Under the pieces are notes generated by a model, which searched no databases, was not told where the DNA came from, and saw nothing but the letters and a program-made list of their open reading frames with translations. A stretch of 64,000 nt of DNA from Pegea sp. RAD2-039 (lineage: Eukaryota; Chordata; Thaliacea; Salpida; Salpidae): assembly GCA_034620365.1 (NCBI GenBank), contig JAQGEQ010000363.1, positions 558,001 through 622,000 on the forward strand, given 5' to 3'. This document shows, piece by piece, positions 4,654 to 61,647 of this stretch (positions are counted from its first letter, which is position 1; the number at the start of each line of letters is the position of its first letter). Made by a program: the position numbers and the translations under genes.

Positions 4654-4686
4654 CTTTAGCACCAAATTGTAGCTGAAAATATACAA

Positions 4687-18450: not shown

Positions 18451-19065
18451 AATGAGCTCTTTAACATTACTTTATTGCCAAAGATTTCGATTTATTATTT
18501 AAAAAAACGTGAAACATCTGAAATAGTTTTCCGTCATAACTGTTTAGTTAGCACAATTCTGAACACTCGTTAAATAAAGAAGTTACATAAGCAGTGAACT
18601 TATTCTGATTGCAAACTTAATTTGAACTTGCATACACCCTTTCAATATCACCACAAAATAATTTGAAATTGATACTTAATAAACTTGCTAATATCTTTGT
18701 TTTATAAAAGCTGAATAATATTAGAATGTAATAATAGGGCAATTTTCAAAAAAGAGCAACTATCTAACTGTTGCAGTAATTTATCTTTATATAAATCAAC
18801 AAACGCTTTCCTTTCATAAATAATCTTCTATTAAGTTTTTTGTTTATAAAGCACATTTGTAGAAATATTTTATTTTAATATCGCGAAACTTGAACAATAA
18901 AGACATTAATCAAGGCACATGATTTACTTGTGGAGAAACTAGTTTTATCAAGTTTTAAATACTTAACTTAAATGTTTGAATTAATTTTGAATTTACTGTA
19001 ATCACTTAAATAAAAAAGAGATTTGGATAAAAACTCATCCATTGATAAGAAAAAAGTGAAAATAT
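18451..19065. other. Intergenic, no gene recognised
   Basis: AT-rich spacer between the ING pseudogene and the CDK pseudogene. The junction at 18451 is an abrupt end of homology to ING. Confidence 0.4.
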
Positions 19066-19734: not shown

Positions 19735-20006
19735 GAATTACGTTGAAAGTTCTCATAAACTTTTATCATTTATTCTTTAACTTTTTTATTTGTAAATGAA
19801 AATTTCTTGTCAGAGCTTGTAACCACTTAATCTAAAGCTTCTTGATGATTTATCATTCATAGATTAAATCACATCAAGCAAATAACATATTTAGTTTATT
19901 TACTGAGACATTTCAAACACTTTTTCTAATTATATTTATAATTTTATGACAACTGATTATTTTGCCAAAACTAATACAAATTTGAGAATTTTTCATATTT
20001 TAATAG

Positions 20007-20817: not shown

Positions 20818-20954
20818 GTGAATCACGTGATACAATATTTGGTTCTATGATTGGTCCGTTCAGGAGAATTACACCGAATTCCAAAGCCATACTTGATGTA
20901 GTCATCTCACAAATGACCAGCTCCGACTACGACAGTTGTAGTAAGTTATTCTGC

Positions 20955-21090
20955 GGAATAGTTGATCATTTACATCTTATTCAAGGAACAAAGGGTATCT
21001 ACCGTTTGATATTTCAGCAAAAATGCAACCAGCACTCCATATATCAATAGTAGTTCTGTCTTTTGTAGCTCCAAGTAATAAATCAGGTGG
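20955..21090 (-). pseudogene. CDK5-like fragment
   Basis: About 135 bp corresponding to the kinase segment [16 protein letters not shown] and the residues on either side (compare 15165-15300). It is diverged and flanked by unrelated sequence. It is a remnant of a further CDK copy in this cluster. Confidence 0.8.
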
Positions 21091-25263: not shown

Positions 25264-28200
25264 ATGAAAAGTTTTTTGTTTAAGTTTTCTATTTGTTTCA
25301 TTCTTATGAACCAAACATTAACTGTAGTCGGAGGTAAGAATTATTATTTAGTTTTATTACAAGTAAATAAATATATCATGAAAAAATAATATTCATTAAT
25401 TCAATAAAGCAAATAAAGCATCACTTTTGATATTCAAGAACTTATACCAGCTTTAATAGGGGAAATAATTTCTGAACTGATAATAAAATTTTAATATTTA
25501 TAACTTCAAAATACTATCTGCTTACTAAGAGTTGTAAACAAAAATAATTTCATATTCGATAAACCAAACCAATGTTTGTTTGAAAGATTGTTTTATTACT
25601 TTAATATAAAACTCTTTGCTAATTTCTTTAACACAGATATCCCAGATTGTGGTGATGGACGGTTCTTCGATTTTAACTCTAATAGATGTGTATCTGGATG
25701 TGAGGAAGGACACCTAACAATACAAATAGATCAATTCGCTGGTGTATGCGATCGTGAGTTTATTTTCAATTCAAATCTTTCATAAATCTATATAAGTTTA
25801 AAAATAACGAAAAGGTTAAAATGATTCTAATAAAATGTTAATAAATTTCATTTAATATTTCAAAAGTCGTATAACTGATTGAAGTAAATTATATTGTTGA
25901 GTAACATTTCGAAATCTACTCACAAGATGCTTAAACAAAGAAATCAAACTATTTTTGGGTTTAATATTGAGATCTAAAAATGTATCCATAAAGCAACTAC
26001 TTATATTGCTAGAAATGAGGAAAATTAATAATAGTAATAATATTGTCTTTTTAATAGCTTCCACGTTTAAAACTTAATTCTATCCCTTTCTTTCTACTTT
26101 GATTATTAATACTTAAATTAATACCAAATCTCACAAGGCCCTCATTAAACGCTTATCTTCAAAAGTTGAACGAATTGAATAGTTTAATGGAAAAAATAAT
26201 AAATTAGATTATCTTGTTTTCACTTGCTTACTTTTTTCTTTTTAGCCTGCGAGTCACCTTGTAAAACATGTGAAGAAAGAACAGACTTTTGCTCAAGCTG
26301 TGAAGAAGGCTATACTTTAGAAAATAGAGATTGTATTCAAACAAGTAAGAATAATATGAATCTAAATATAAACTTATTTTAATTTCAAATAATTTTCTAA
26401 ATATTGAATCAAAACTCGGCGCAAAAATTTCTTTTAATTTCAGACCCGGACAACTCATCAGTGAATACCACCAAATGTGGGGTTGGGATGTTTCGTGAAG
26501 TCGATACTGGAAAATGTGTATCTAGGTGTAAGGAGGGATACCTAACCTTACAACCGATACAGAAACCTGGTGAATGTAGACGTAAGTTTATATGCTGATG
26601 ATTAGAATTTCTTTTAAATACTTTTGAATTTACTTTTATCAAAAAATAGGACAACTGTTTCTAGAAAATGACCAATTTATTTTATGAGCAGTAACTTTTA
26701 AATCAAAATAAAAGGTCAAGTATTGTCCCTATTACAAGTTGCCTAAAGAAAAAAGTAGAATTATTGCTTGTCCTAGACAAATTAACATATTACAAAATCA
26801 TTTTGAAAGCTCATCTTCATTATCACTTTGAATGATGATGTCGTAAATTACCCTGAGTCATCATTAGCAGGTTCAATCTTAAAATATTACCATTAAAAAT
26901 TCAACATGATAATTTAGAAGATTGGATTTTAAATTTTTATAAAGATAAATAGAAAAATTAATCGCAATATATACTTTTTACTTTCTAGCCTGCCAGTCAC
27001 CTTGTACGAGCTGCGAATTAAGAGTGGACGTCTGTACGTCGTGCGAAGAAGGTTATACTTTAAATGGTTGGGGTTGTTTGAAAACAAGTAAGTTGCTCAT
27101 GAACCCAAAAACCGATTTATTTCCAAGAAAAATGAATAGAATTTTAAGACTCTATTGCAGCTCAACACTAAAACTCTTTTTCTAATTTCAGACCCTGATG
27201 GCTCATCAGTAAATACCACAAAATGTCCGGCTGGACTGTTTCGTGAAGTTGATACTGGAAAATGTGTACCTTGGTGTGCGGACGGATACCTAGGAGTACA
27301 ACGGAGAGGAGGAAATTTAATATGCAAACGTAAGTTTATTTCCTTTTTCTCTTTAAACTTTTTTGAGTTTATAATTTACTGAAAAGTAAAAGGACTTATT
27401 TTTGTTCTTGAAGATTTTAAAATTTTATCTTTGACTAAAAAATCTTGATTATGATTATTTATATCGTGAACATTTTTTTCTATATATAGTAAATCGCATA
27501 AATACTGAAAGTAAATAGTAACTAAATACTAAATTTAACAAAATTTTTGTTAGAAGTTTACCCGGAAAAATTATATAAATAAATTAAGTAGTTTTATGTG
27601 AATATTCAAATAAGTTAATAATTAAATTATATTGTTTCTTTTCCACAAATTTCTTTTACTTTTTTAGGTTGTTTGACACCTTGCAAAACATGCTTAGCAA
27701 GAAGAAATTATTGTACGGCTTGCAATAGAGGCTTTGTCCTAATGGGTAGTGAATGTATAAAAGAAAGTAAGTTTATTGTAATTAACAAACCAGATTTGAA
27801 AAAGGTTTTCTAAAACTTTAAATAATTTGTTTAACTTTGGTGAACTTTGTAGATATTTTAGAGCATTGGCCAGATTGTAGCAAGCCTCCTAGATGCAGGC
27901 TCCGATATCCTAGAAGAAAACGGAAACCTAATCGAACTCTTATGAGACATTGTCGAAGTAGATACAGACTATTTTGTGAAATTTCAAGAGGTATTAGTTT
28001 ATGCTTTATTTTTGTAAATGATAATCTTTAAATTTAAAATATTTTTTGGCTAGATACTATATACTGAAATATATTTTCAAAAAATTTAAATGCCTACTAT
28101 ATATAAAGGTTTACTTTTAATCAGAATAACCGTGAAAGTATTAGATTTTATCATTTCTTAAGGTGCTAGCTTATAAATCAACAATATAGTAGCACTAATT

Positions 28201-28586: not shown

Positions 28587-29554
28587 TCATTAAAAGTCTT
28601 GCAATTGATGCTTAAATCTTAGCAGCTGTTGTAGAAGGCGGAAAATTGTATTCTTTGTAAAGCTGACTTTTTCTTCTTTTCTTTTCTGGAATTTTCTTCA
28701 AGTTTTTAAACAAATAAATAATTTTCTAACAACAGTTTGTAGTTTTAATTTGTTGTTGTGATGTATTCTGATATCTGAGTATCATACTCTTCTTTGTTTG
28801 TGTTTCATCACACAAACTTTTAGAAATGATAATGACTTTGTAGCAAAGCTTTACTTTATTATAAATTGAACAAAAATCTTCAGTAATTACTAACATCCAC
28901 TAACTAAGACTATAAGACTGAGTAAAAGCATTTGCAATCAAAACCCTTGTTTTTTTACTTTATATAGCCACAACTGAATAGCACCAAACGCCTTTATTGG
29001 CACCTTCCAATCTTTAGTTTGTAGTTTTCTTGACTTTAAAGTACATCTTAATACCATAAATTATAATGTTCTACCTAGCTATAAACTTGCTATAAACAGA
29101 AAAAAATGTAATAAGCTTAATAATATTACAGTTAATAATTTGCCTTACAAAATACCATAAATTATCTGCATTTAAAAACAAGAATTAATTTCATCTAGCT
29201 TTCATTGATTGAGCTTAATTCTCGAAAATCGATTTTAACAGTTTTCAGATGAGTTTAAACTTAAAATATCTTTCTTATGTTTTAAGCTGATGGCTGAAGT
29301 GATGTTTTCAAAGAATAAACATCATATTGTAATTTTGTCAAATTATTTTATTTATTAATTTATATAATTTGCTATTTGCTCACATCTACACTAGAATAGT
29401 TTTCCAAAGCTAGATTTTAACCAACTATTACACTAATGACGTCATAATGCCAGTTTTTAGTTGATGGGTGAATATAACAATTATTATCAAATATTTTTCA
29501 CTTGATTTAATGAACTAACTGCGTTCTTTGTATAAAGCCGAAATTCAAGTTATC
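28587..29554. other. Spacer between furin-like and micro-exon genes
   Basis: AT-rich. It matches block 2 at 46890-47385 and 53060-53538; the place near 29080 is where block 2 contains about 5.7 kb of extra DNA. No gene seen. Confidence 0.6.
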
Positions 29555-32500
29555 ATGGAAAAAACTATTGAAGTAATTTGATTTTTGTAATATATTATCA
29601 GTTTTAATCTTTAAAATGCTTAGTGTTGTATTAAGTAAGACTTTTTATAAGTATTTTAAGCAAAAGTAGAGTTTAAACATTTAGTTGCTTAAACTTACGT
29701 AGTAAAAACCAGTTTTTGGTGCGCTGGCGTCAGTTCTGCTTCAGACTTTTCGGTGGCAGAAAAGTTGTTTTAAGTCACATAGAATCATTTCTTACAAAAA
29801 TCTAATCCATTTGTTGATTGAGCAAATTAATGAACCTATCAATGTTATGTCATTTATATTGTTTTTATGCTACAACTGAAATAAGAGCATAACTTCTTTT
29901 AGCTTAAAATTAATAGTAAAAAGTAGTAATAAACTATATTGATTGCTGATAATTGCTAAATTTATTAATTTTTATTAGATTAGTGAGTGTATACTTATAA
30001 ACATTTTAAAACAAAGTTTGACTTTGTAGTAGGACTACTAATATTCAAGTATAGTTTGTCTAATCAAACACCTGGGACTTTATGAGGTCTAAAAAGTCTT
30101 TAAGCATATCATATTTTTACAAATAAAAAAAATGGTATAAATAAAATGAGTTTTTATCGAATAATATACCTAATACTTATGAATTAACCAGTTTATTGAT
30201 TGAATTAATGAATGATAAGAACTTATTTGATTTTAAAAGTACCCTAAAAAGTATTAATAAAATAAGTAAATTATCTTATATTAATTGATTAAATTGAAAT
30301 CTTTTTAAGGTTTCAAAAATTGATTCTGTTGAAGTTGTTGAAAAAAGTATTTTCCGCTCTAAAGGAGAAACAGGACTCCCTGATCTTTCTAAGGTGAAGA
30401 AAGTTTGAAACTTTTTTGAACTTAATTTTTAAATGTTGATTTAATTTCGTTAATATTTAATTTTTCCAGCTACATGTTCAAAATAAATATAGAATTTGAT
30501 TTAGTTTTAAAAAATTGCAAATTTAACTAAGTTATTGTTTATTTATTTTCAAGGAACCAATTTCAAAAGTAAACGAGAAACAAAGTTCTTCATCTACAAG
30601 TGCTTCAGATATACTCCAAGTATGTAGAAATTAAAACATTTGATTTGAGCTACTAGGTACTTTTTACAAATATTTTAAAATAATATTGATCTAAAATCAT
30701 TAAAATTCTACTTAATTTATATAAAAAGATTAAAATAATAATAATAATTGGAAATCAAACTTTTTAGGAATTCATTAATCAACCATCTAATGATGTAATC
30801 AATAACAACACTTTGACTTGTAGCAAGGTAGGTTTTCTTAGTCAGTAGATTAAATAGAGAAAATGCTTCTGCTCAAAGTACTTTCAGTAACACCAAAAGT
30901 AACTTTTAAATTTTTCATAAGGATCCTGAAACTACTGTAACTGCAACTGATGGAACGCTTGAATTGAACCCAAATGTTAGAAATCCTGACTTATCCAACG
31001 TTGTAAGAGTTTTAGATATTTTTGTAAACTTTACGATATGATAGATACAGAAAACCAAGAATATTTAGTTCTGAAATTAGCTTAGCAATCTAACTTGTTT
31101 CTAGCTTAAAATAAATATTCTTTTAAATCTGATTTAAAAGTAATTTAAAAGTTTGTTGAAGTAGAATTTTAGGGTAGAATTTATTAGATGTAAATTTAAA
31201 ACCAAACTTTTACAGCGATCTGATTCTAGTGTTGATGACGTCATTGAGTCTTTTGGGGATGTAAGTTGGTTTTAAACATCGAAAGAAATAAACTTCTAGA
31301 ACTTAATTTTATCTATTTCTTTTCAAGGGAGCTCTTATTGGTAAAACTGGGAGTGATAAAAGATCGGTTTTGAACTTTTCAGAAGATACTAAAGCTTCTG
31401 ATTGTTGTGAGGTATTCAAGTTTGTAATTCTCTATTTTTATTCTTCATTCTTTTAAAAATTCTTAAAATTAAAGATTTAAAATAAGTATTCAGAAAAGTT
31501 TTCCATTAAACTAAAATATTAAATAAAAATATTCTTATATTTTTTTAAGAAAACCGGTTTTGTTTCAAACGGAGCCGATACTAAGAGTTCTGCATCTGAA
31601 AATACTCCTGATATTTCTGAGGTAAAAACAAATTGAAATAAATATTCATAGTTTCAAGTTGCTTTATGAAATTCTTTCAAAAAAATTCTTATCAATGTTA
31701 TGACAGCCACAACTCTCAAGTGGAAAATTTTAAAGAAGTCTGATAACAAACTTGGTCACGAAAATCATTTAAAAGATTGAATAATTTGTTTTTCATTTTA
31801 CTAATGTATAATATTGGTATAAAAATAAAAAACTGCTCCATTTTTTTGATTCAAAACTGATTTAAATCTTAATTATCTGATACAAAAAAGGAAATAAAAA
31901 AATAATAAATAAATAATTAAGAAATTTCTTCAGAATTAATTTATTAATGATGTAAACAATTTTATCAAAATGTCTTTTTTAATTTTCTCTGATATTTCAA
32001 ATTATAAATATTTGTTTACAAATTTACTTTAAAATTGATTTAACGATCTAACTTATCTCACTTTTAAACTCTTTAATACTTATAGATTGTTCCCTCTGGT
32101 GTTGATTCTGATGTATCTGATAAAGATGCCCCAACAATTGAAGATGTGAGTGTTGCATCTTTTTCCTTAAAAGTTTTATGGAATTATTTTGTTTTACTTA
32201 TGCAAATATGATTTTAAGTCTTAATGTTTTTGCAAATCAATATTTATTATTAAAAAATCTTAAACTATTTTTGCAACGATTTCATTATTAATTTAAAATA
32301 TCTTCAGTATCTAAAAACTGATATTTGGAAAGATCTTTCTGCCGAGAAGAAATTACATGGGGACGAATTGAATGTAATATTTCTAACTTATTTGTACATT
32401 TATTTCTTATACTAATTTTTTAGATTCAAATAAACTATCTTAAAATAACTTTTCAGAAACAAACTAAATTTAAGATAAATAAACCAACTTAAAGCTAAGC

Positions 32501-35500
32501 AGTTATTAAATTTCAGAAACCAACTACAAAAACTTCAGAAGAACTTTTGGATGAAGAAACAGCAAAAATGGTGGAGGTACTCCATCATATAGTTTATATT
32601 TAGCTACACAAATTATTTGTAATTCATATTTATCAGCTTAAAACAAACTAACTTGAAGCTAATCACTATTATGTTAATATATCTAAATACTGATCTTTAA
32701 AACTAGGAGCTTTTGAGTGATGATATCTTCGACTCTGAGCAAAATACAATGATAGAAAAAGAAAAAGAGAAGAAGGAAAAGATGAAGGAGCAGTGTTTGC
32801 TTGAATATGAAGCCAAAAACAGAAGAGTAACTTTTTTCAAATAAATTGTTGTTGTATAAAGCCTCTTTAGTTTGTTTTAAAAGTTCTGTAAATTATTGAA
32901 ACATTTGGAGATTTAAACTTCCTTTTATCTTTTAATGTTTAGTTTTCTAATTTACCCAACTCTTAGGTGGTTTTTACTGACCCAATAGTGATTGGGAGGA
33001 CGGAGCCTATCTTGGTTCTGAAATCACTGTTGAAGAAGAAGGATCCAGCCAAAGTAAGACATTAAATTGTTGAACAACAAACTTAATGAAAATTAATCAT
33101 CAAAAACCTTTTGCAGATATCACAAGTTACATCTTATAGTGATAAAAAGTTTGAGCTGATATCGGATGTAAGCTGATTTAGAAACTGTTATTCATCACCA
33201 TTTATATTTTGTATATTTCTTAATTTAATTGTTCGATGATTTTTTGAATAAATTATCAAAATTGTTTTAACATCATTTTTAAACATTCCGAATGACATTT
33301 AAATCATATTAATTTTAACACAGGATGATTTGGATGATGAAGTGTTTTTGGAAGAAATAGATTTGTTATTAAAGAAAATGTCTGAAACTAAAGTCAGTAT
33401 TAAAAATAATAAACAAAACTTTTAGCAATTGAAATATTAGTAAATAAACATTCATTTTATTGTTCAAGTTCTAAAGGAAGTCATTTATTAGAGAAAGAAG
33501 TTGACTTGCAGATCTAAAACATTTCTTGCTTTTACAAACTAGAAACTTAAATAAATAAAATAATTGTTTGCCGAATAACAGATTTAAAACATTTTAATAA
33601 ACCAGCTTTGTGCTTGAAAGTTAGAAGTGATACAAACAAACCTTATTTTAAAAGTACCCTAAAAAATATTAATAAAATAAGTAATTATCTTATATTAATT
33701 GACTAAATTTAAATCTTTCTAAGGTTTCAAAAACTGATTCTGTTGAAGTTGTTGAAAAAACTACTTTCAGCTCTAAAGGAGAAACAGGACTCCCTGATCT
33801 TTCTAAGGTGAAGAAAGTTTTAAACTTTTTTGAACTTAATTTTTTAAGTGTTTATTTAATTTTGTTAATCTTTAACTATTTCAGCTATATGGTCGAAATA
33901 AATATAGAATTTAATTTACTTTTCAAAAATTGCAAATTTAACGAAATTATTGTTTTATTTATTTTCAAGGAACCAATTTCAAAAGCAAACGAGAAACAAA
34001 GTTGTTCATCTACAAGTGCTTCAGATATACTCCAAGTATGTAGAAATTAAAACTTTTGATTTGAGCTATTAGCTACTTTTTACAATTATTTTCAAAGTTT
34101 TAGGGCAATTATTTTAAAAACTAAATGCTAAAAATAATAATGTCGAAGAAATCTATCAAAAATCTGACGTAAACACATCTTTCAGAAAATTAAAACTTCA
34201 AACAAATGTTTTATTTATCTAAATATAACTTAATGATTGTTACTGATGATAAGCTATCTACTAATTGATCTATAATCATTAAAACTTTACTTAATTTCTA
34301 AAAAAGTTCAAAATAATAATAATAATTTGAAATCAAACTTTTCAGGAATTCATTAATCAACCATCTAATGATGTAATCAATAACAACACCTTGACTTGTA
34401 GCAAGGTAGGTTTTCTTAGTCAGTAGATTAAATAAAGATAATTCTTTTGCTTAAAGTGCTTTCAGTAAAACCAAAAGTAACTTTTAAATTTTTCATAAGG
34501 ATCCTGAAACTACTGTAACTGCAACTGATGGAAAGCTTGAATTGAACCCAAATGTTAGAAGTCCTGACTTATCCAACGTTGTAAGAGTTTTAGATATTTT
34601 TGTAAACTTTACGATATGTGATAGAATCAGAAAACAAAGAATATTTAGTTCTGAAATTAACTTAGCAATCTAGCTTATTTTTAGCTTAAAATAAATATTC
34701 TTTAAAATCTAATTTAAAAACAATTTAAAAGTTTGTTGAAGTAGAATTTTAGGGTAGAATTTATTAGATGTAAATTTAAAAACAAAATTTTACAGCGATC
34801 TGATTCTAGTGTTGATGACGTCATTGAGTCTTTTGGGGATGTAAGTTGGTTTTAAACATCGAAAGAAAGAAATTTCTAAAACTTAATTTTATCTATTTCT
34901 TTTCAAGGGAGGTGTTATTGGTAAAACTGGGAGTGATAAAAGATCGGTTTTGAACTTTTCAGAAGATACTAAAATTTCTGATTGTTGTGAGGTATTCAAG
35001 TTTGTAATTCTCTATTTTTATTATTCAATCTTTTATGTGATTTGTTAAATAAACAACTAACTTTGAAGATGATGATATTAAACATTAATATTTAACATCT
35101 AAAATCAGTATTCAGAAAAGTTATCGATTATATTAAAATATTAAATAAAAATATTCTTATTTATTTTCAAGAAAACCGGTTTTGTTTCAAATGGATCTGT
35201 TATTAAGAGTTCTGCATCTGAAAATACTCCTGATATTTCTGAGGTAAAAAGAAACTGAAACAAATGTTCATAGTTACAAATTGCTTTATGCAATTCTTTC
35301 AAAAGTTTTTTTATCAATGTTATGACAGCCACAACTCTCAAGTGAAATTTTTTAAAGAAGTTTATTAACAAACTTGATCAAAAAGAGCATTTTTAACTTT
35401 GAATAATTTTATTTTATTTTAACGATGCATAATTTTGATACAAAAGTAATAAACTCTTTTACTTGACCAAAATAAAACATTTATAAATATTAAATATCTG

Positions 35501-37575
35501 GTCTCGTATAATTGCTATTTTTAAACTATTATCCTAAAGCTACCAATTTTTCAAAACGTTATATATTAATAACAATAACTGTTTCGTATTTTCAAGGAAC
35601 TAAAACCAATTGCAAATGAGAATTTATATAAAATACAGGATACTTTGAATGATGAAGAGTTTAAAGAAAATCCTAATTTGTTATTACAGAAAGATTCTGA
35701 ACATATGGTCAGTATTTAAAAACATATATAAATAAAAGGTTGAGTAAATAATCTATTATTATATAAACATCTATTTTATTGCTCAAGTTCTAACTGACGT
35801 TATTTATTACAGCAAGAAGTTGTTTTGACACGAAACATTTACAGAAAAAAACTGTCTTCACTTCCCATATCGAAGGTGAAAATAAATATTGTTTACTTTG
35901 TGATAAACCTTCAATTATAAAACTTGTCAAGATTAAGTTAATTGCAAACTACCATAAATTAATCATTGAGTTCTATCTGCTATTGACTTACAAAACTTAA
36001 ACAAATCTTTTAACATATTTAAATTTTATCAAATATTTATCTCGTTGTTACTGCATTGTAATAATTTGCTATTTATGTTCCATATATTTGTATTTCTTGA
36101 TATACTTTATTCAATATTTTTTTATACAACAATAGGTACCCAAAGTTCAAAACTGCTTTCTGGAAAATCCAAAGTTGAAAGCAAACAAACTAGAAGGAAA
36201 AATCACAGATGATAATGAGAATGTGAGATTTAGAGCTTTTTATATTAAGTTTTGAAACAATATTAATTAAAAGTTGTTTTCCAAATTTATTTAGTCAATT
36301 GATTAATTAAATGATTAAAAATGTTTTTACTCTATAATAAAATATAAGGTGATCTTACAAAGTTTAATTTTGTATACTAATTTTTTATCGAAAAATTGTT
36401 TCGCTTTAAATTTGAGATTCTAAAATTAAAATGTCTATTTCAACAGATTATTGAAGACACAATAATACAACATCCAAATATGATTATATCTGAGAATTAC
36501 AACAAATTGGTAGATTTTCTTTTGCATGCTTTTAAATAAAATTTCAAATTTGATGTTTAACATTTTTCTCAAACTAAGTTTTTGCAAACAGCTAAACTAA
36601 AAAGTCCAATTTTAAGGCATTTATGAAATTATTATTATTTTTAGGGTTTTCTTAGACCCAATTACAGCTTGGTTTTACCTGAAATTAAAGATTCAACCAA
36701 GGTAAGTGATGTGATTACAAAACTTTTATGTCAGTTTGGAAATCATGATGATATTATCTATTTTTTTAATTAAGGTTACAAGCAAATATAATGATAACGA
36801 CTTTTTGGCCAATGAAATAAAACCAAAGAAAAAGAGTAAAATCAGAAAAGTAAATTATATTTTCAAATTGCTAAGATCACATACAATAATAAATAATAGA
36901 TTTTTTTCCTTGTTTTTTTATAAATTGACATATTCTATATTATATATAATTATATTCTATGTTTTTCTATGAATGGAATTCTAATATTAACTTTTTTAAT
37001 AGTTTTTTAGAAACCTTCTGGGTTTAGATAAGAATAAAGTTGTAGCTCTGGTAAGTTCAAAAAGCTTATATTTTAAATATTTATTTTAAAATCTTTAAAC
37101 CAAACCATCAAACTCTGTTGATAATAGTTAATTTGGATTCAGTTTTATTAAGAGTCTAGCTAAGTAGTTTTGGTTATAATTGAATATAAATTTTTAATAA
37201 ATATCAAACTAAGTAATTTATTACAAAAGCTTTAAATACTTTTATATAAGTTAAAAATTAAATGGTTTTAAAAACATTACAGACTCAAAAGGACCTTGAA
37301 ATTGAAGAGGTAACAATTAAATAAGAAAATATATAAGCAACAGTTTCTTAAATTACACTTTTTGAGATATTTTCTTTTATTTATACTTTTTTTTTCATAG
37401 AAAATTAAAGTACCGAAAAAACCGTCATTAAACATTTTCAAGTGCTTCCAGTTTATGAGTAAGTTAACATGTTATTTATTTTCTTCTTTTAATGAGTTAT
37501 TATAAATGAAATACTTTATTTATGTTTTGTTAATAAAAATCAAAAATGTTTTCTTATTTAGAAAAGAAGTTCTAA
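29555..37575 (+). CDS. Micro-exon gene, 32 tiny exons, acidic/serine-rich protein of unknown function
   Basis: I do not recognise the protein. Exons: 29555-29572 (tentative start, MEKTIE), 30310-30393, 30554-30619, 30768-30827, 30922-31002, 31216-31260, 31328-31411, 31550-31621, 32086-32145, 32308-32373, 32517-32576, 32707-32826, 32967-33053, 33117-33167, 33324-33392, 33724-33807, 33970-34035, 34346-34405, 34500-34580, 34796-34840, 34908-34991, 35172-35243, 35597-35707, 35813-35875, 36136-36222, 36447-36509, 36645-36701, 36775-36849, 37003-37050, 37283-37309, 37401-37458, 37562-37575. All junctions but the last are phase 0, and the sum is 705 codons with no stop. The protein is rich in S, D, E, K, with a charged helix (EKEKEKKEKMKEQ) and no obvious domain, signal peptide or membrane segment. 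Symmetric tiny exons recall schistosome MEGs in architecture only. Exon-level confidence is high except for the first exon; further 5' exons are possible. Confidence 0.85.
30310..31621 (+). repeat. Seven-exon cassette, first copy
   Basis: Exons 2-8 of the micro-exon gene (84, 66, 60, 81, 45, 84, 72 bp). The same seven lengths recur in the same order at 33724-35243, with introns also alignable. Confidence 0.95.
33724..35243 (+). repeat. Seven-exon cassette, second copy
   Basis: Exons 16-22, an intragenic duplicate of exons 2-8. Exon lengths are identical; coding differences are few (for example VSKTDSVEVV against VSKIDSVEVV, GGVIGKTG against GALIGKTG). Several introns carry extra DNA relative to the first copy, for example about 160 bp between exons 17 and 18. 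Confidence 0.95.
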
Positions 37576-38604
37576 ACAAAATCGAAAAGGGATTCAAGTA
37601 TTACTCCCAAATTATTTTCTGATTTACACGTTTTCCTGTTTCAAAAAGTTTCTTTCAAGTCGCGCTTTCCTTTCTTGGAATATCTTTTCAACTCTAACTC
37701 AATGATTTCAAGATCGCCTTTGATAACTTGTCAATGTAATAAAACTCTTTTAGCAAATAATTAAGTCTGTTTTTATCAGTACACGCCACTCCCCACTTTA
37801 ATCAAATTTAATGATCATACATGAAAGGATTATTAGATCGAACATACATCTCTAATATTCTAATAGAGGATTTATATTAATCATGTGGAAATTATTTAAG
37901 AGTTATTCTCTAACTTTTAAAGACACATAACAAGAATATAACGCTGTTTGTTTTGGAACACCTCTGTGTTGAGGTGTTGCTAGGAAAGGATTTTCTCCAA
38001 AGTCACAAAGATGAATGAGTTATGAGGTCCACAAGAAGATTTAGCTAATTATATGACCAATAAACACAAGAAATTAATCTGCTAATTACATGCATACATA
38101 AATATTTTGTAAATATAATTACAGTTTCAATATTCATTTATTCCTGTGAAAAGTTAAACATTATTAACTGAACTTTTAGAATATAAAGTTTAATGTAACT
38201 AAAGTTTGAACTTAATGAAAAGTCTTAGATATTTTATTTTTAGCTTGTTTGTATAAAAAATAAATTCTTAATTAATAAAAATATTGCAAACATTTGATTT
38301 CAAACAAAAATTCTATTCTAAGTATTATGTTTCTCAATGATATTTGATTTGAAATAATTGACAAAATGAAAAGATACAACCAAACTTTTGGCTTTTTATT
38401 TGTTTTATTGAATGAAATGATACCAAAAGTCGTGAAAACGTTTAAAAGTTTGCAATAATGCAGATTAATAACAGAATTTTCAAAGATTGTGGATAAATTA
38501 GCGTATTCATAAGCACTTTCTTTGGAAATATTTGAAGAGCTTTCTATCAAATGTTCTTATATTGAAGTTTTATTGATGTTTGCAAACATCCACAATAATT
38601 CAAT
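37576..38604. other. 3' flank of micro-exon gene and of the orphan gene
   Basis: Up to about 37783 identical to block 2 (61648-61855). The piece 37940-38010 (CTCTGTGTTGAGGTGTTGC) is weakly similar to 51915-51975. From 38090 it matches 63360 onwards. A minus-strand open frame at 38550-38272 is downstream of the orphan gene's stop and is not protein-like. Confidence 0.5.
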
Positions 38605-39558
38605 TCATTTTGCAATTAATAAAGTAAAGTTAAATGAAGGAAATATTAACTTTGAGGATGCAGCACCCATATAATAGAAGGTTTTGTCAATTATGTAGCT
38701 TTTGCAAGAAATGCTAAGCTTGTTTTTCAAACTTTTCCAAACGGACTTTTTCTGAGGTTTAGGTTCAGCCGCCATAATTAATGGTGAAACCCGATTCTTC
38801 CTCATAAACAAATTACGAAAACTAGATGAGCTACTTGCTTTAATCGGTGTAGTTTTGATGGTTTCTTTAAATGGCATATATTCAAAGCATTGCTCAATAC
38901 TTTTCTTTTTTATATTATTGTTATTGCCATCACCTTCAGCATAAAACGAATCAATGCTTTTTATTTCATCTATGGAGTTTAAACTATCACCATCTCCATC
39001 ACAAGCACCATAAGTATCACTACTTTCAAAGCTAGTTGATATAACTTCTTCAACTAACTCGGGAATACAAGTTGGTATGCTAAGATTTCGTAGTTGGTTT
39101 TTAAACTCAGCTTTTGTTACAGCTAAATTTCTTTTTTTACTCAACTGAATCTTCTTTTTATTTTTCTTAGAACGTTTTTTAGATTTTTTAACTTTCGGTT
39201 TCTGTGTGGAAATCCACAAAGGTGGAAGCCCATTAATATGTTTGTAGGACTTGTTACAACCAATTTTAAGGTTCTCAAGTGAATAACTTCTTCTTCGAAG
39301 CAAGTTAGTTTCTTTCTGATTTTTCATCACCAGCAAGGGTGGAGCAGAGTCTGGTCGAGAATTACCATCTCGATTCAGGTTTATTTTTTCAACATCGTCG
39401 ATGTTAAAATCTTCCTGAAGACAAATTTTTTCAAGGGCCAGAAACTCCCACAACTCGATTTTATCTTCGAGTAAACGATTACAATGAGAGCTGACTCTAT
39501 AATCATTCAAACTTGGCTTCACTGAAAGACTCATTTTAGAAATTCGTGAAATGCTCAT
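38605..39558 (-). CDS. Orphan basic, serine-rich protein (317 aa)
   Basis: I do not recognise this protein. It is one uninterrupted frame with an acceptor (TTTTATTATTAG) 14 nt upstream of the ATG, which supports the start. Residues of about 120-145 are a strongly basic block (KKSKKRSKKNKKK), a probable nuclear or nucleolar signal. An acidic stretch with DGDGDSLNSIDEIKSIDSF lies in the middle, and a serine run (SSSSSFRNLF) towards the C-terminus. The C-terminus is hydrophobic (FPSFNFTLLIAK). No domain, cysteine pattern or enzyme motif is visible. It is convergent with the micro-exon gene and duplicated with it; the second copy starts at 63861. Confidence 0.7.
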   Translation of the reverse strand: MSISRISKMSLSVKPSLNDYRVSSHCNRLLEDKIELWEFLALEKICLQEDFNIDDVEKINLNRDGNSRPDSAPPLLVMKNQKETNLLRRRSYSLENLKIGCNKSYKHINGLPPLWISTQKPKVKKSKKRSKKNKKKIQLSKKRNLAVTKAEFKNQLRNLSIPTCIPELVEEVISTSFESSDTYGACDGDGDSLNSIDEIKSIDSFYAEGDGNNNNIKKKSIEQCFEYMPFKETIKTTPIKASSSSSFRNLFMRKNRVSPLIMAAEPKPQKKSVWKSLKNKLSISCKSYIIDKTFYYMGAASSKLIFPSFNFTLLIAK

Positions 39559-44515: not shown

Positions 44516-46459
44516 ATGAAAAGTTTTTTGTTTAAATTTTTTATTTGTTTCATTCTTATGAACCAAACATTAACTGTATTCGGAGGTAAGAATTATTATT
44601 TAGTTTTATTACAAGTAAATAAATATATCATGAAAAAATAATATTCATTAATTCAATAAAGCAAATAAAGCATCACTTTTGATATTCAAGAACTTATACC
44701 AGCTTTAATAGGGGAAATAATTTCTGAACTAATAATAAAATTTTAATATTTATAACTTCAAAATACTATCTGCTTACTAAGAGTTGTAAACAAAAATAAT
44801 TTCATATTCGATAAACCAAACTAATGTTTGTTTGAAAGATTGTTTTATTACTTTAATATAAAACTCTTTGCTAATTTCTTTAACACAGATATCCCAGATT
44901 GTGGTGATGGACGGTTCTTCGATTTTAACTCTGATAGATGTGTATCTGGATGTGAGGAAGGACATCTAACAATACAAATAGATCAATTCGCTGGTGTATG
45001 CGATCGTGAGTTTATTTTCAATTCAAATCTTTTATAAATCTATATAAGTTTAAAAATAACGAAAAGGTTAAAATGATTCTAATAAAATGTTAATAAATTT
45101 CATTTAATATTTCAAAAGTCGTATAACTGATTGAAGTAAATTATATTGTTGAGTAACATTTCGAAATCTACTCACAAGATGCTTAAACAAAGAAATCAAA
45201 CTATTTTTGGGTTTAATATTGAGATCTAAAAATGTATCCATAAAGCAACTACTTATATCGCTAGAAATGAGGAAAATTAATAATAGTAATAATATTGTCT
45301 TTTTAATAGCCTCCACGTTTAAAACTTAATTCTATCCTTTTCTTTCTACTTTGATTATTAATACTTAAACAACCAAATCTCACAAGGCCCTCATTAAACG
45401 CTTATCTTCAAAAGTTGAACGAATTGAATAGTTTAATGGAAGAAATAATAAATTAGATTATCTTGTTTTCACTTGCTTACTTTTTTCTTTTTAGCCTGTG
45501 AGTCACCTTGTAAAACATGTGAAGAAAGAACAGACTTTTGCTCAAGCTGTGAAGAAGGCTATACTTTAGAAAATAGAGATTGTATTCAAACAAGTAAGAA
45601 GAATATGAATCTAAATATGAACTTATTTAATTTCAAATAATTTTCTAAATTATGAATCAAAACTCGGCGCAAAAATTTCTTTTAATTTCAGACCCGGACA
45701 ACTCATCAGTGAATACCACCAAATGTGGGGTTGGGATGTTTCGTGAAGTCGATACTGGAAAATGTGTATCTAAGTGTAAGGAGGGATACCTAACCTTACA
45801 ACCGATACAGAAACCTGGTGAATGTAGACGTAAGTTTATATGCTGATGATTAGAATTTCTTTTAAATATTTTTGAATTTACTTTTATTAAAAAATAGGAC
45901 AACTGTTTCTAGAAAATGACCAATTTATTTTATGAGTAGTAACTTTTAAATCAAAATAAAAGGTCAAGTATTGTCCATAATACAAGTTGCTTAAAGGAAA
46001 AAGTAGAATTATTACTTGTCCTAGACAAATTAACATATTACAAAATCATTTTGAAAGCTCATCTTCATTATCACTTTGAATGATGATGTCGTAAATTACC
46101 CTGAGTCATCATTAGCAGCTTCAATCTTAAAATATTATCATTAAAAATTCAACATGATAATTTAGAAGATTGAATTTTAAATTTTTATAAAGATAAATAG
46201 AAAAATTAATCGCAATATCTACTTTTTACTTTCTAGCCTGCCAGTCACCTTGTAAGAGCTGCGTATTAAGAGTGGACGTCTGTATGTCGTGCGAAGAAGG
46301 TTATACTTCAAATGGTTGGGGTTGTTTGAAAACAAGTAAGTTGCTCATGAACCCAAAAACCGATTTATTTCCAAGAAAAATGAATAAAATTTTAAGACTC
46401 TATTGCAGCTCAACACTAAAACTATTTTTATAATTTCAGACTCTGACAACTCTCAGTAA
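44516..46459 (+). CDS. Furin-like cysteine-repeat protein, truncated copy 2
   Basis: Exons 44516-44585, 44889-45005, 45495-45593, 45692-45829, 46237-46335 and 46440-46459 match exons 1-6 of the block 1 gene. A missing nucleotide in exon 6 (TCTCAG for TCATCAG) gives the end NSDNSQ and a stop, 180 aa in all. Just after the stop, about 950 bp are deleted relative to block 1, removing the rest of exon 6 and exons 7 and 8; sequence resumes at the counterpart of 28165. The signal peptide and two furin-like units with their partners are intact, so a short secreted protein is possible; otherwise this is a pseudogene. Confidence 0.75.
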
Positions 46460-53538: not shown

Positions 53539-56500
53539 ATGGAAAAAACTATTGAAGTAATTTGATTTTTGTAATCTATTATCAGTTTTAATCTTTAGAA
53601 TGCTTAGTGTAGTATTAAGTAAAACTTTTTATAAGTATTTTAAGCAAACGAAGAGTTTAAACATTTAGTTGCTTAGACTTACGTTGTAAAAACCAGTTTT
53701 TGGTTCGCTGGCGTCAGTTCTGCTTTAGACTTTTCGGTGGCAGAAAAGTTGTATTAAGTCAAATAGAATCATTTCTTACAAAAATCTAATCCATTTGTTG
53801 ATTGAGCAGATTAATGAAACTGTCAATGTTATGTCATCTATATCGTTTTTATGCTACAGCTGAAATAAGAGCATAACTTCCTTTATCGTAAAATTATTAG
53901 TAAAAAGTAGTAATAAAATATATTGATTGCTGGTAATTGCTAAATTTATTAATTTTTATTAGATTAGTGAGTTTATACTTATAAACATTTTAAAACAAAG
54001 TTTGATTTTATAGAAAAACTACTAATATTTAAGTATTAAAATACTGTGAGCTTTTGCCGAATAATAAAGTTAATAGTTTTAAATAAACCAGCTTTTGTTT
54101 GAATTAATAAGTGATAAGAACTTATTTAATTTTAAAAGTACCTTAAAAAGTATTAATAAGATAATTAATTATCATATATTAATTGACTAAATTTAAATCT
54201 TTCTAAGGTTTCAAGAACTGATTCTGTTGAATTTGTTGAAAAAAGCATTTTCAGCTCTAAAGGAGAAACAGGACTTCCTTATCTTTCTAAAGTAAAGAAA
54301 GTTTGAACTTTTCTGAACTTAATTTTTGAAGTGTTGATTTAATTTTGTTAATCTTTAACTATTCCAACTACATGTTCAAATTAAATATAGAATTTAATTT
54401 AATTTTCAAAAATTGCAAATTTAACTTAATTATTGTTTTATTTATTTTCAAGGAACCAATTTCAAAAGTAAACGAGAAACAAAGTTGTTCATCTACAAAC
54501 GCTTCAGATATACTCCAAGTATGTAGAAATTGAAACATTTGATTTGAGCTATTAGGTACTTTTTACAAATCTAATAAAAGTTTTAGGGAATTATTTTAAA
54601 AGCCAAATACCCAAATAACAATTTCGAAGAAATCTAAAAAAAAACTCAAATAGAAACATCTTTCTATAAACTAAAACTTCAAACAAATGTTTTATTTATC
54701 TAAATATTACTTAATGATTTTTACAAATAATAAACTATCTACTTATTGATCTAAAAATCATTAAAATTTTACTTGATCTCTAAAAAAGTTCAAAATAATA
54801 ATAATAATTTGAAATCAAACTTTGTAGGAGTTCATTAATCAACTATCTAATGATGTAATCAATAACAACACTTTGACTTGTAGCAAGGTAAGTTTTTTAA
54901 TTAGTAGATTGAATAAAGAGAATGCTTCTTCTCAAAGTACTTTTAGTAACACCAAGAAATAATTTTTAATTTTATATAAGGATCCTGAAACTACTGTAAC
55001 TGCAACTGATGGAAAGCTTGAATTGAATCCAAATGTTAGAAGTCCTGACTTATCCAACGTTGTAAGAGTTTTAGATATTTTTGTTAACTCTATAATATAA
55101 TAGAGTTAGAAAACAAAGAATATTTCATTTGTAAATTAACTTAGCAATCTAACTTTCGAAAATAAATAATCTTTAAAATCTAATTTAAAAACAATTTAAA
55201 AGTTTGTTGAAGTAGAATTTTAGGTTAGAATTTATTAGATGTAAAATTAAAACCAAACTTTTACAGCGATCTGATTCTAGTGTTGATGACGTCATTGAGT
55301 CTTTTGGGGATGTAAGTTGGTTTTAAACATCGAAAGAAAGAAATCTCAAAAACTTATTTTTATCTATTTCTTTTCAAGGGAGGTGTTATTGGTAAAACTG
55401 GGAGTGATAAAAGATCGGTTTTGAACTTTTCAGAAGATACTAAAGCTTCTGATTGTTGTGAGGTATTCAAGTTTGTAATTCTCTATTTTTATTATTCAAC
55501 CTTTTATGTGATTTGTTAAATAAACAACTAACTTTGAAGATGATGATATTAAAAATTCATATTTAACATCTAAAATCAGTATTCAGAAAAGTTATCGATT
55601 ATATTACAATATTAAATAAAAATATTCTTATTTATTTTCAAGAAAACCGGATTTGTTTCAAATGGATCTGTTATTAAGAGTTCTGCATCTGAAAATACTC
55701 CTGATATTTCTGAGGTAAAAAGTAACTGAAATAAATGTTCATAGTTTTCAATTGCTTTATGCATTTCTTTTGAAAGTTGTTTTGTCAATGTTATGACAGC
55801 TATAAATCTCAAGTGAAAATTTTTAAAGAATCTGATAACAAACATGGTCACAAAGATCATTAAAAACATTGAATCATTTGTTAGTTCATTTTATTTTGAT
55901 ACAAAAAAGATAAGCTGCTCCATTTGTTCGATTCAAAACTGATTAAAACCATAATTATCTGATACAAAAAGGAAAATAACAAAATAATAAATAAATAATT
56001 AAGAAATTTCTTCAGAATTAATTTATCAATGTTGTAAACAATTTTATCAATTTGTATTTTTTCATTTTTTCTGATATTTCAAATTAGAAATATTTGGTTG
56101 CAAATTTACTTTAAAATTGATTTAACGATCTAACTTATCTCACTTTTACACTCTTTAATACTTATAGACTGTTCCTTTTGGTTTTGATTCTGATGTATCT
56201 AATCAAGATGCCCCAACAATTGAAGATGTGAGTGTTGCATCTTTTTCCTTAACAGTTTAATAAAATTATTTTGTTTTACTTATGCAAATATGATTTTAAG
56301 TTTTAATGCTTTTGCAAATCAATATTTATTATTACAAAATCTTAAAATATTTTTGCAACGATTTCATTATTAATTTAAAATATCTTCAGTATCTAAAAAC
56401 TGATATTTGGAAAGATCTTTCTGCCGAGAAGAAATTACATAGAGACAAATTGAATGTAAGATTTCTAACTTATTTGTACATTTATTTCTTATACTAATTT

Positions 56501-59500
56501 TTTAGATTCAAATAAACTATCTTAAAATAACTTTTCAGAAACAAACTAAATTTAAGATAAATAAACCAACTTAAAGCTAAGCAGTTATTAAATTTCAGAA
56601 ACCAACTACAAAAACTTCAGAAGAACTTTTGGATGAAGAAACAGCAAAAATGGTGGAGGTACTCCATCATATAGTTCATATTTAGCTACGCAAATTATTT
56701 ATATCTCATATTTATCAGTTTAAAACAAACTAACTTGAAGCTAATCACTATTTTGTTAATATATTTAACTATTAATCTTTAAAACTAGGAGCTTTTGAGT
56801 GATGATATCTTCAATTCTGAGCAAAATAGATTGATAGAGAAAGAAAAAGAGAAGAAGGAAAAGATGAAGGAGCAGTGTTTGCTTGAATATGAAGCCAAAC
56901 ACAAAAGAGTAACTTTTTTCAAATAAATTGTTGTTGTATAAGCCTCTTTAGTTTGTTTTAAAAGTTCTGTAAATTATTGAAACATTTGGAGATTTAAACC
57001 TCCTTTTATCTTTTAATGTTTAGTTTTCTAATTTACAAAACTTTTAGGTGGTTTTTACTGACCCAATAGTGATTGGGAGGACGGAGCCTATCTTGGTTCT
57101 GAAATCACTATTGAAGAAGAAGGATCCAGCTAAAGTAAGACATCAAATTGTTGAACAACAAACTTAATGAGAATTAATTTTCAAAAACCTTTTGTAGGTA
57201 TCACAAGTTACATCTTATAGTGATAAAAAGTTTGAGCTGATATCGGATGTAAGCTGATTTAGAAACTGTTATTTATCACAATTTATCATTTGTAAATTAT
57301 TTAATTTAGTTGTTTGATGATTTTTTGAATAAATTATCAAAATTGTTTTAACATTATTTCTAAACACTCAGAATCACATTTAAATCATATTAATTTTAAC
57401 ACAGGATGATTTTAATGATGAAGAGTTTTTGGAAGAAATAGATTTGTTATTAAAGAAAATGTCTGAAACTAAAGTCAGTATTAAAAATAAAAATCAAAAC
57501 TTTTAGAAATTGAAATATTAGTGAATAAACATTCATTTTATTGTTCAAGTTCTGACGGAAGTTATTTATTATAGAAAGAATCTGACTTACAGCTCTAAAA
57601 CATTTTTTTAATTTTACAAACTAAAAACTTAAATTAATAAAATAAGCTTTTGGCGATTAATATATTTAATACATTTGAATAAACCAGCTTTCTGCTTGAA
57701 AGTTAAAAGTGATACAAACAAACCTTATTTTAAAAGTACCCTAGAAATTATTAAGAAAATAAGTAATTATCTTATATTAATTGACAAATTTAAATTCTTC
57801 TTAAGGTTTCAAGAACTGATTCTGTTGAAGTTGTTGAAAAAACTACTTTCAGCTCTAAAGGAGAAACAGGACTCCCTGATCTTTCTAAGGTGAAGAAAGT
57901 TTGAAACTTTTTTGAACTTAATTTTCAAGTATTGACTTAATTTTGTTAATCTCTAACTATTCCAACTACATTTTCGAAATAAGTAAAGAATTTAATTTAA
58001 TTCTCAAAAATTGCACATTTAACTTAATTATTGTTTATTTATTTTCAAGGAACCAATTTCAAAAGCAAACGAGAAACAAAGTTGTTCATCTACAAACGCT
58101 TCAGATATACTCCAAGTATGTAGAAATTGAAACATTTGATTTGAGCTATTAGCTACTTTTTACAATTCTTTTCAAAGTTTTAGACAATTATTTTAAAAAA
58201 TAAATGCTACAAATAATAATATCGAAGAAATTTATCAAAATCTCACGTAAACACATCTTTCAGAAAACTAAAACTTCAAACAAATGTTTTATTTATCTAA
58301 ATATAACTTAATGATTGTTACAAATGATAAACTATCAACTAGTTGATCTAAAATCATTGAAATTCTACTTAATTTTTATCAAAAGTTAAAATTAATTATA
58401 ATTGGAAATCAAACATTTCAGGAATTCATTAATCAACCATCTAGTGATGTAATCATTAACAACACTTTGACTTGTAGCAAGGTAAGTTTTCTTAGTTAGT
58501 AGATTAAATAGAGAAAATGCTTCTGCTCAAAGTACTTTCAGTAACACCAAAAATAACTTTTTAATTTTTAATAAGGAGCCTGAAGCTACTGTAACTGCAA
58601 CTGATGGAAAGCTTGAATTGAGTCCAAAAGTTAGAAGTCCTGACTTATCCAACGTTGTAAGAGTTTTAGATATTTTTGTAAACTTTACGAAATGTGATAG
58701 TATAAGAAAACAAAGAATATTTAGTTCTGAAATTAGCTGAGCAATCTAACTTGTTTCTAGCTTAAAATAAACATTTTAAAAAATCTAATTTAGAGGCAAT
58801 TTAAAAGTTTGTTGAAGTAGAATTTTAGGTAGAATTTATTAGATGTAAATTTAAAAACAAACTTTTACAGCGATCTGATTCCAATGTTGATGACGTATTG
58901 AGTCTTTTGGGGATGTAAGTTGGTTTTAAACATCGAAAGAATTAAATTTCTAAAACTTAATTTTGTCTATTTCTTTTCAAGGGAGGTGTTATTGGTAAAA
59001 GTGGGAGTGATAAAAGATCGGTTTTGAACTTTTCAGAAGATACTAAAGCTTCTGATTGTTGTGAGGTATTCAAGTTTGTAATTCTCTATTTTTATTCTTC
59101 ATTATTTTATGTGATTTGTTAAATAAACCACTAACTTTGAAGATGATGATATTAAACATTAATATTTAACATCTAAAATAAGTATTCAGAAATGTTATCG
59201 ATTATATTAGAATATTTAATAAAAAGATTCTTATTTATTTTCAAGAAAACCGGTTTTGTTTCAAATGGATCTGTTATTAGGAGTTCTGCATCTGAAAATA
59301 CTCCTGATATTTCTGATGAAAAAGAAACTGAAACAAATGTTCATAGTTTTCAATTGCTTTATGCATTTCTTTTAAAAGTTTTCTATCCATATTATGATAG
59401 CCACAACTCTCAAGTGAAATTTTTTAAAGAAGTTTATTAACCAACTTGATCAAAAAAATCATTTTTAACTTTGAATAATTTTATTTTATTTTAACGATGC

Positions 59501-61647
59501 ATAATTTTGATACAAAAGTAATAAACTCTTTTGCTTGACCACAATAAAACATTTATAAATCTTAAATATCTGGTCTCGCATAATTGCTATTTTTAAACTA
59601 TTATCCTAAAGCTACCAATTTTTCAAAACGTTATATATTAATAACAATAACTGTTTCGTATTTTCAAGGAACTAAAACCAATCGCAAATGAGAATTTATA
59701 TAAAATACAGGATACTTTGAATGATCAAGAGTTTAAAGAAAATCCTAATTTGTTATTACAGAAGGATTCTGAACATATGGTCAGTATTTAAAAACATATA
59801 TAAATAAAAGGTTTAGTAAATAAAATATTATTATATAAACATCTATTTTATTGCTCAAGAGCTGACTGACGTTATCTATTACAGCAAGAAGTTGTTTTGA
59901 CACCAAACATTTACAGAAAAAAGCTGTCTTCACTTCCCATATCGAAGGTGAAAATTAATATTGTTTACTTTGTGATAAACCTTCAATCATAAAACTTGTC
60001 AAGATTAAGTTAATTACAAACTACCAAAAATTAATCATTGAATTCTATCTGCTATTGACTTACAAAACTTAAACAAATCTTTTAACATATTTAAATTTTA
60101 TCAAATATTTATCTCGTTGTTACTGCATTGTAATAATTTGCTATTTATGTTCCATATATTTGTATTTCTTGATATACTTTATTCAATATTTTTTTATACA
60201 ACAATAGGTACCCAAAGTTCAAAACTGCTTTCTGGAAAATCCAAAGTTGAAAGCAAACAAACTAGAAGGAAAAATCACAGATGATAATGAGAATGTGAGA
60301 TTTAGAGCTTTTTATATTAAGTTTTGAAACAATATTAATTAAAAGTTGTTTTCCAAATTTATTTAGTCAATTGATTAATTAAATGATTAAAAATGTTTTT
60401 ACTCTATAATAAAATATAAGGTGATCTTACAAAGTTTAATTTTGTATACTAATTTTTTATCGAAAAATTGTTTCGCTTTAAATTTGAGATTCTAAAATTA
60501 AAATGTCTATTTCAACAGATTATTGAAGACACAATAATACAACATCCAAATATGATTATATCTGAGAATTACAACAAATTGGTAGATTTTCTTTTGCATG
60601 CTTTTAAATAAAATTTCAAATTTGATGTTTAACATTTTTCTCAAACTAAGTTTTTGCAAACAGCTAAACTAAAAAGTCCAATTTTAAGGCATTTATGAAA
60701 TTATTATTATTTTTAGGGTTTTCTTAGACCCAATTACAGCTTGGTTTTACCTGAAATTAAAGATTCAACCAAGGTAAGTGATGTGATTACAAAACTTTTA
60801 TGTCAGTTTGGAAATCATGATGATATTATCTATTTTTTTAATTAAGGTTACAAGCAAATATAATGATAACGACTTTTTGGCCAATGAAATAAAACCAAAG
60901 AAAAAGAGTAAAATCAGAAAAGTAAATTATATTTTCAAATTGCTAAGATCACATACAATAATAAATAATAGATTTTTTTCCTTGTTTTTTTATAAATTGA
61001 CATATTCTATATTATATATAATTATATTCTATGTTTTTCTATGAATGGAATTCTAATATTAACTTTTTTAATAGTTTTTTAGAAACCTTCTGGGTTTAGA
61101 TAAGAATAAAGTTGTAGCTCTGGTAAGTTCAAAAAGCTTATATTTTAAATATTTATTTTAAAATCTTTAAACCAAACCATCAAACTCTGTTGATAATAGT
61201 TAATTTGGATTCAGTTTTATTAAGAGTCTAGCTAAGTAGTTTTGGTTATAATTGAATATAAATTTTTAATAAATATCAAACTAAGTAATTTATTACAAAA
61301 GCTTTAAATACTTTTATATAAGTTAAAAATTAAATGGTTTTAAAAACATTACAGACTCAAAAGGACCTTGAAATTGAAGAGGTAACAATTAAATAAGAAA
61401 ATATATAAGCAACAGTTTCTTAAATTACACTTTTTGAGATATTTTCTTTTATTTATACTTTTTTTTTCATAGAAAATTAAAGTACCGAAAAAACCGTCAT
61501 TAAACATTTTCAAGTGCTTCCAGTTTATGAGTAAGTTAACATGTTATTTATTTTCTTCTTTTAATGAGTTATTATAAATGAAATACTTTATTTATGTTTT
61601 GTTAATAAAAATCAAAAATGTTTTCTTATTTAGAAAAGAAGTTCTAA
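53539..61647 (+). pseudogene. Micro-exon gene copy 2, probably damaged
   Basis: Every exon of the block 1 gene has a counterpart, for example 54208-54291, 54453-54518, 54828-54887, 54981-55061, 55267-55311, 55379-55462, 55643-55714, 56168-56227, 56789-56908, then the second cassette from 57806, and exons 25-32 from 60208 to 61647. Two lesions are visible in the second cassette: exon 20 (58871-58914) is 44 nt instead of 45, and the donor of exon 22 (59317) has changed from GAGGTAAAA to GATGAAAAA. Because neighbouring exons are all phase 0, skipping exons 20 and 22 would restore an open frame, so the gene could still be expressed. Exons 25-32 are identical to block 1. Confidence 0.75.

Follow-up and report, generated by a model that had tools for sequence, protein, structure and literature searches.

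The 64,000-nucleotide stretch of Pegea sp. RAD2-039 DNA analysed here in full (the window; contig JAQGEQ010000363.1 of assembly GCA_034620365.1, positions 558,001 to 622,000 of the forward strand) contains, at 29555-37575 (+), a predicted gene of 32 short exons that we refer to as copy A, and further downstream a second version of the same gene, copy B. We think it likely that these are the two tandem copies of a real, lineage-restricted and modular tunicate gene that has grown by the duplication of phase-0 exons. Read from the sequence, the features that carry this interpretation are the exon borders and their symmetry, a duplicated block of seven exons, the stronger conservation of exons than of introns, the damage to two exons of copy B (20B and 22B) and the tunicate host.

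The exon chain of copy A

The coding exons of copy A total 2118 nt, equal to 705 codons and a stop, and the 31 introns that separate them all have GT-AG borders; the 32 exon borders proposed in the initial annotation are thus upheld, as is its uninterrupted chain of 705 codons with a stop only at the end. The lengths of exons 1-30, including all 29 internal exons (2-30), are multiples of three, introns 1-30 are in phase 0 and intron 31 alone is in phase 1, much as had been described, although the size range of 27-120 bp given for the thirty symmetric exons holds for exons 2-30 (mean 69.9 nt) and not for exon 1, which has 18 nt. The G+C content is 34.1% in exons and 20.3% in introns, and an in-frame stop is present in 29 of introns 1-30. 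Arithmetic bears out the statement that each exon is skippable without loss of frame, and when internal exons were sampled at random, none of 5000 subsets lost the frame or gained a stop. Since each codon of exons 1-30 lies within a single exon, the duplication, decay or omission of an exon leaves the frame intact. The least secure parts of the chain are the six codons of exon 1 and the final 14 coding bases.

Copy A is, on present sequence evidence, a real protein-coding exon chain and a real and unusual gene. A gene finder that allows introns of any phase, using a codon table derived from the other open reading frames (ORFs) of the window and splice matrices written from recall, found the exact borders of 25 out of 29 internal exons in copy A and of the same number in copy B when run over the whole window, and placed every junction within either copy in phase 0. 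Exons 4, 10 and 26 were absent from its copy A, where exon 30 was ended at a stop, and exons 4, 20 and 26 from its copy B, where exon 22 was extended and the start and end of the gene were placed elsewhere; this run also merged copy A with an upstream furin-like gene (seven phase-1 junctions). On 29000-37900 alone the finder scored 106.7 above no gene with 28 exons and 27 junctions, all in phase 0, while calling no gene in 40 dinucleotide shuffles of this region nor on the antisense strand. In the frame of the chain, exons 2-30 contain no stop and have codon log-odds of +186.1; the other two frames contain 34 and 109 stops, with log-odds of -3.4 and +16.5 respectively. In human proteins lacking collagen domains about 42-44% of exons are symmetric (PMC4838654), so that an unbroken symmetric run would not be expected by chance even if its length is taken as no more than the 22 internal exons that lie outside the repeated block.

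Duplicated exons and the second copy

The best evidence for the origin of this structure is provided by copy B and by the internal seven-exon duplication, neither of which was part of the initial annotation. Exons 16-22 of copy A repeat exons 2-8 with protein identities of 86-100%, and exons 15 and 23 are relatives with 57% identity over 21 residues; an exon-by-exon comparison detected no kinship among the remaining exons beyond two matches at E 0.16 and E 0.62, both weak. Growth by the duplication of symmetric exons is therefore visible in these two sets of one-phase duplicates and is undetectable elsewhere in the gene. We suppose that short exons already lying between phase-0 introns were duplicated both singly and as the seven-exon block, of which copies A and B together contain four versions, 93.9-96.3% identical in their exons and 84.6-91.6% in their introns. 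A further 196-nt DNA match of 75% between 33317-33508 and 35632-35827 ends in 15 bases (33494-33508) corresponding to the start of exon 24; past these the ungapped identity is at chance level and an in-frame stop soon follows, and because the match covers 15 bases of it and no more, a relic of an exon-24-like exon behind exon 15 is put forward as a possibility. Five other DNA self-matches within the gene (57-62% identity) and one of 72% were left unused, there being no shuffle control for them in such AT-rich DNA.

Comparison of the two copies supports the exon borders independently of the gene model, as exons and introns have diverged to different extents. In the interval 30310-35875, 69 of 1670 exon sites and 335 of the 3859 intron sites are different between the copies (p 4.5e-10), and the gene as a whole has one indel in its 2118 exon bases, as against 27 in its 5885 intron bases (p 0.004), 23 of these 27 not being multiples of three. 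In copy B every exon is free of stops in its own phase, and the copy remains open for 666 codons when its damaged exons 20 and 22 are left out. The gene finder, uninformed of this damage, skipped exon 20B and stretched exon 22B to 168 nt, which is a multiple of three. Together, the block duplication and the damage to exons 20B and 22B make both the gain of exons and the frame-safe bypass of damaged ones visible within a single locus. There are no differences between the copies over a tract of 1810 nt at the 3' end, which in copy B reaches to about 61850, while the upstream parts are several percent apart, a pattern best explained by conversion in the recent past or by an effect of the assembly. 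Another stretch without differences, of 216 nt, lies at 32379-32594.

Constraint, product and competing readings

The predicted protein is rich in lysine (11.9%), serine (11.3%), glutamate (9.6%) and aspartate (8.9%), with 3.5% glycine and 4.4% proline. As first annotated, it has no signal peptide, and it has no membrane segment either, the start being hydrophilic and the highest hydropathy over 19 residues 1.07; nor does any phase-0 donor in 28601-30309 close a hydrophobic first exon that could supply a hidden signal peptide. The basic stretch encoded by exon 28 looks like a nuclear localisation signal. No Pfam family was found above its cut-off, Ig, Sushi and collagen domains being unmatched, and the sole match, to DUF5871 (E 0.12; 12.6 bits, cut-off 26.9), is put down to chance. 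The protein database search requires shared five-residue words and similar length, so that distant or short relatives may escape it; it yielded none at E <= 0.001 among the 7990 best-sharing candidates for the whole protein, and none at E <= 10 among 2728 candidates for the half encoded by exons 16-32. Matches to flagellar M-ring sequences in PDB (three at E <= 1, the best 0.016) are likewise taken as chance, similarity to the remaining predicted proteins encoded in the window (best E 0.28) was not used, and the motif [ST]xx[DE] is not enriched, its 27 occurrences (23.8 expected) being matched in 482 of 2000 shuffles. The window has no match in Rfam. We infer that the product would be a hydrophilic, probably mostly disordered and probably intracellular chain, made up of modules of 9-40 residues and basic at its C-terminal end, and that its likely working principle would be that of a modular linker or scaffold, the length and content of which would be set by the choice of exons in real transcripts.

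Several observations weigh against a functional protein-coding gene of this kind. Constraint at the protein level is weak. In exons 2-24, exon 20 excluded, 21 of the 346 synonymous sites and 46 of the 1280 nonsynonymous sites differ between copies A and B, which gives a ratio of nonsynonymous to synonymous divergence (dN/dS) of 0.58 (p 0.047), and the same count in the two wrong frames gives 0.93 and 0.63. Among the block copies dN/dS ranges from 0.35 to 1.79, and the changes private to a block (22 nonsynonymous and six synonymous, the exon 6/20 pair excluded) fit a neutral ratio. The two damaged exons of copy B also fit decay, the charge-hydropathy value of the protein (-0.017) makes it borderline disordered, and the absence of relatives in the searches described leaves no wider conserved family in view. 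Synonymous sites are less divergent than introns in three of six block comparisons (p < 0.05; the comparisons are not independent), and between the whole copies there is no clear difference (p 0.11). Together with the weak dN/dS, these results suggest that exon conservation may act in part on the RNA, for example on splicing, rather than on the protein.

The most serious alternative is that the symmetry is a mere by-product of exon duplication, as in collagens, with constitutive splicing giving one linker or structural protein per copy, and we rate this at somewhat less than an even chance. The seven-exon block and the exon 15/23 pair show that duplication took place, symmetric exons are favoured by duplication alone, and the human collagen genes provide an example of long symmetric runs built from duplicated exons (PMC4838654). 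But most exons have no detectable mutual kinship beyond the block and the 15/23 pair, leaving duplication invisible for most of the run, and the damaged exons of copy B would be intolerable under constitutive splicing if that copy is functional. The alternative splicing of symmetric exons is plausible and a combinatorial choice among them possible; the fuller proposal of a chordate family in which some thirty interchangeable phase-0 exons are used combinatorially to make protein sets that vary with cell or individual, the kit being renewed by exon turnover and by gene conversion between tandem copies, strikes us as improbable.

We attach still less weight to a role in tunicate self-recognition or immunity, either through individual-specific isoforms made by exon choice, as with fester, or as a disordered cytoplasmic partner similar to BHF. 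The host is a tunicate, the gene is in tandem copies with very similar 3' ends and diverging 5' modules, and its exons are skippable by arithmetic; in Botryllus, many in-frame, genotype-specific splice variants are reported for fester, and BHF has disordered regions and lies beneath the membrane (PMC12065747). The protein described here has no Ig domain, Sushi domain or membrane segment, however, the searches run detected no sequence kinship to any protein (these Botryllus proteins being compared through such general searches only), and bulk sequencing did not reproduce the extent of fester splicing (PMC12065747). A gene of the fester type is further set apart by its signal sequence, which is missing here as well. 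Equally slight is the chance that both copies are decaying or non-coding relics, with an open chain left over from an older gene: while the weak protein constraint, the damage in copy B and the lack of relatives would suit such an origin, copy A is open over 705 codons with 31 canonical introns, and exons are clearly better conserved than introns in both substitutions and indels. Least credible of all is an artefact of picking open AG-to-GT stretches in AT-rich DNA, for although the chain was first put together by eye, and exons 1 and 32 are very short, this explanation is already contradicted by the independent recovery of the exons with the phase-free finder, by the failure of all 40 shuffles to give a gene and by the contrast between exons and introns across the copies.

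Our preferred reading, a tandem pair of modular tunicate genes, can be set beside several known systems. In a schistosome micro-exon gene (MEG) very short exons, of 36 nt or less, make up the bulk of the coding sequence, and this label, attached in the initial annotation, is a poor fit, as only three of the 32 exons lie within this limit (seven have 51 nt or less), eight of the internal exons (29 in all) are longer than 81 nt and the host is a tunicate. The likeness to schistosome MEGs is in the many short exons, mostly multiples of three and skippable in frame, whereas MEG short exons have 6-81 bp, mostly 15 bp, and the genes encode a conserved signal peptide (PMC10526429); the gene described here shares the divisibility and differs in its exon size, in the lack of an N-terminal signal peptide and in not belonging to a parasitic flatworm. 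The bicycle genes of aphids also have unusually many small internal exons of one phase and no long-range sequence relatives, but these exons are nearly all in phase 2 and the products are putative secreted effectors (PMC9168663). With all 29 internal exons in phase 0, and no signal peptide, the tunicate gene is ruled out as a bicycle gene; it is also ruled out as a collagen, for collagens have Gly-X-Y repeats, and the tunicate protein has no Pfam collagen match and the low glycine and the proline contents given above. The PEVK region of titin and tropoelastin are disordered or extensible chains encoded by many small symmetric exons, the inclusion of which sets their length, but the tunicate protein is rich in lysine, serine, glutamate and aspartate rather than in proline and valine (sequences compared through general searches only).

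Descriptions of genes with many short exons of one kind come from schistosomes and aphids, where the products are secreted and effector-like, and no account of such a tunicate gene was found in the titles and abstract openings covered. A non-secreted case in a tunicate, a close relative of the vertebrates, with duplicated and damaged exons in two copies, illustrates how a structure of this type can be built up and tolerated. Should transcripts reveal free choice among the exons, chordates would have a new means of diversifying their proteins; should they reveal none, the gene would be a clean case of frame-safe exon turnover.

Feature coordinates, host and neighbouring sequences

Table 1. Coordinates in the window of the exons of copy A and of associated features. 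The finder column compares each exon with the phase-free gene finder.
Feature	Position	Strand	Length (nt)	Phase	Finder	Remarks
Exon 1	29555..29572	+	18			Start codon, MEKTIE; same in copy B; among weakest calls
Exon 2	30310..30393	+	84	0	agrees	Opens block 1 (exons 2-8)
Exon 3	30554..30619	+	66	0	agrees	
Exon 4	30768..30827	+	60	0	not recovered	
Exon 5	30922..31002	+	81	0	agrees	
Exon 6	31216..31260	+	45	0	agrees	
Exon 7	31328..31411	+	84	0	agrees	
Exon 8	31550..31621	+	72	0	agrees	Closes block 1
Exon 9	32086..32145	+	60	0	agrees	
Exon 10	32308..32373	+	66	0	missed in A, recovered in B	
Exon 11	32517..32576	+	60	0	agrees	
Exon 12	32707..32826	+	120	0	agrees	Longest exon
Exon 13	32967..33053	+	87	0	agrees	
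Exon 14	33117..33167	+	51	0	agrees	
Exon 15	33324..33392	+	69	0	agrees	Related to exon 23
Possible relic of exon-24-like exon start	33494..33508	+				Weak; tail of DNA match
Exon 16	33724..33807	+	84	0	agrees	Opens block 2 (exons 16-22); copy of exon 2
Exon 17	33970..34035	+	66	0	agrees	Copy of exon 3
Exon 18	34346..34405	+	60	0	agrees	Copy of exon 4
Exon 19	34500..34580	+	81	0	agrees	Copy of exon 5
Exon 20	34796..34840	+	45	0	agrees	Copy of exon 6
Exon 21	34908..34991	+	84	0	agrees	Copy of exon 7
Exon 22	35172..35243	+	72	0	agrees	Copy of exon 8; closes block 2
Exon 23	35597..35707	+	111	0	agrees	
Exon 24	35813..35875	+	63	0	agrees	
Tract identical between copies	35971..37780	+	1810			Introns and 3' flank included
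Exon 25	36136..36222	+	87	0	agrees	
Exon 26	36447..36509	+	63	0	missed in both copies	
Exon 27	36645..36701	+	57	0	agrees	
Exon 28	36775..36849	+	75	0	agrees	Codes basic stretch
Exon 29	37003..37050	+	48	0	agrees	
Exon 30	37283..37309	+	27	0	exact in B; ended at later stop in A	Last symmetric exon
Exon 31	37401..37458	+	58			Followed by sole phase-1 intron
Exon 32	37562..37575	+	14			Last coding bases, with stop
Candidate poly(A) signal AATAAA	37738..37743	+				Counterpart at 61810 after copy B
Copy B	53539..61647	+				Same 32 exons; from rebuilt chain, copy comparison and gene finder
Exon 20 of copy B	58871..58914	+	44			One base lost, frameshift
Exon 22 of copy B	59246..59317	+				Donor GT changed to GA

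The window itself identifies the host as a tunicate and not a flatworm. A WDR82-like ORF at 10925-11866 (gene at 10925-11869, +) has a top match of 98%, followed by Phallusia, Ciona and Clavelina at 73-75% (among the best 120 of 1279 matches), and in a 33-row tree with a midpoint root the protein falls with these three genera and six further proteins in a group of 10 with support of 100/99. This gene and another at 9328-10131 (+), which we take to be proteasome-beta-like, are each a single uninterrupted open frame.

The furin-like gene upstream of copy A (25264-27991, +; 3' end provisional) has a hydrophobic, signal-peptide-like start, a match to Pfam Furin-like_2 (E 8.7e-14) and six internal exons of 117, 99, 138, 99, 138 and 99 nt, all of them symmetric and in phase 1; a partial copy at 44516-46335 has lost the stretch matching 27216-28164. 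At 1954-4734 (-) there is an open frame of 926 residues, mostly composed of 60-nt tandem repeats, with a hydrophobic stretch near its start and nothing in Pfam above the cut-off. Three or four intronless or broken kinase-like copies, 86-95% alike, are present at 14930-15799 (-), 19173-19769 (-), 20952-21090 and 49154-50020 (-); we take the kinase to be CDK-like, and the copies are possibly retrocopies. An inverted pair at 5184-5823 and 52369-53010, 86% identical, holds an open frame of 174 residues with no match in Pfam, which we take to resemble the end of a retrotransposon reverse transcriptase. Downstream of copy A, an intronless, lysine-rich open frame of 317 residues at 38605-39558 (-) has related DNA at 63382-63998, and the DNA of 38102-38742 recurs, 84% identical, at the end of the window, where a further copy may thus begin. 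Two stretches of about 458 nt in direct orientation, at 13218-13673 and 17997-18452, repeat each other with 91% identity.

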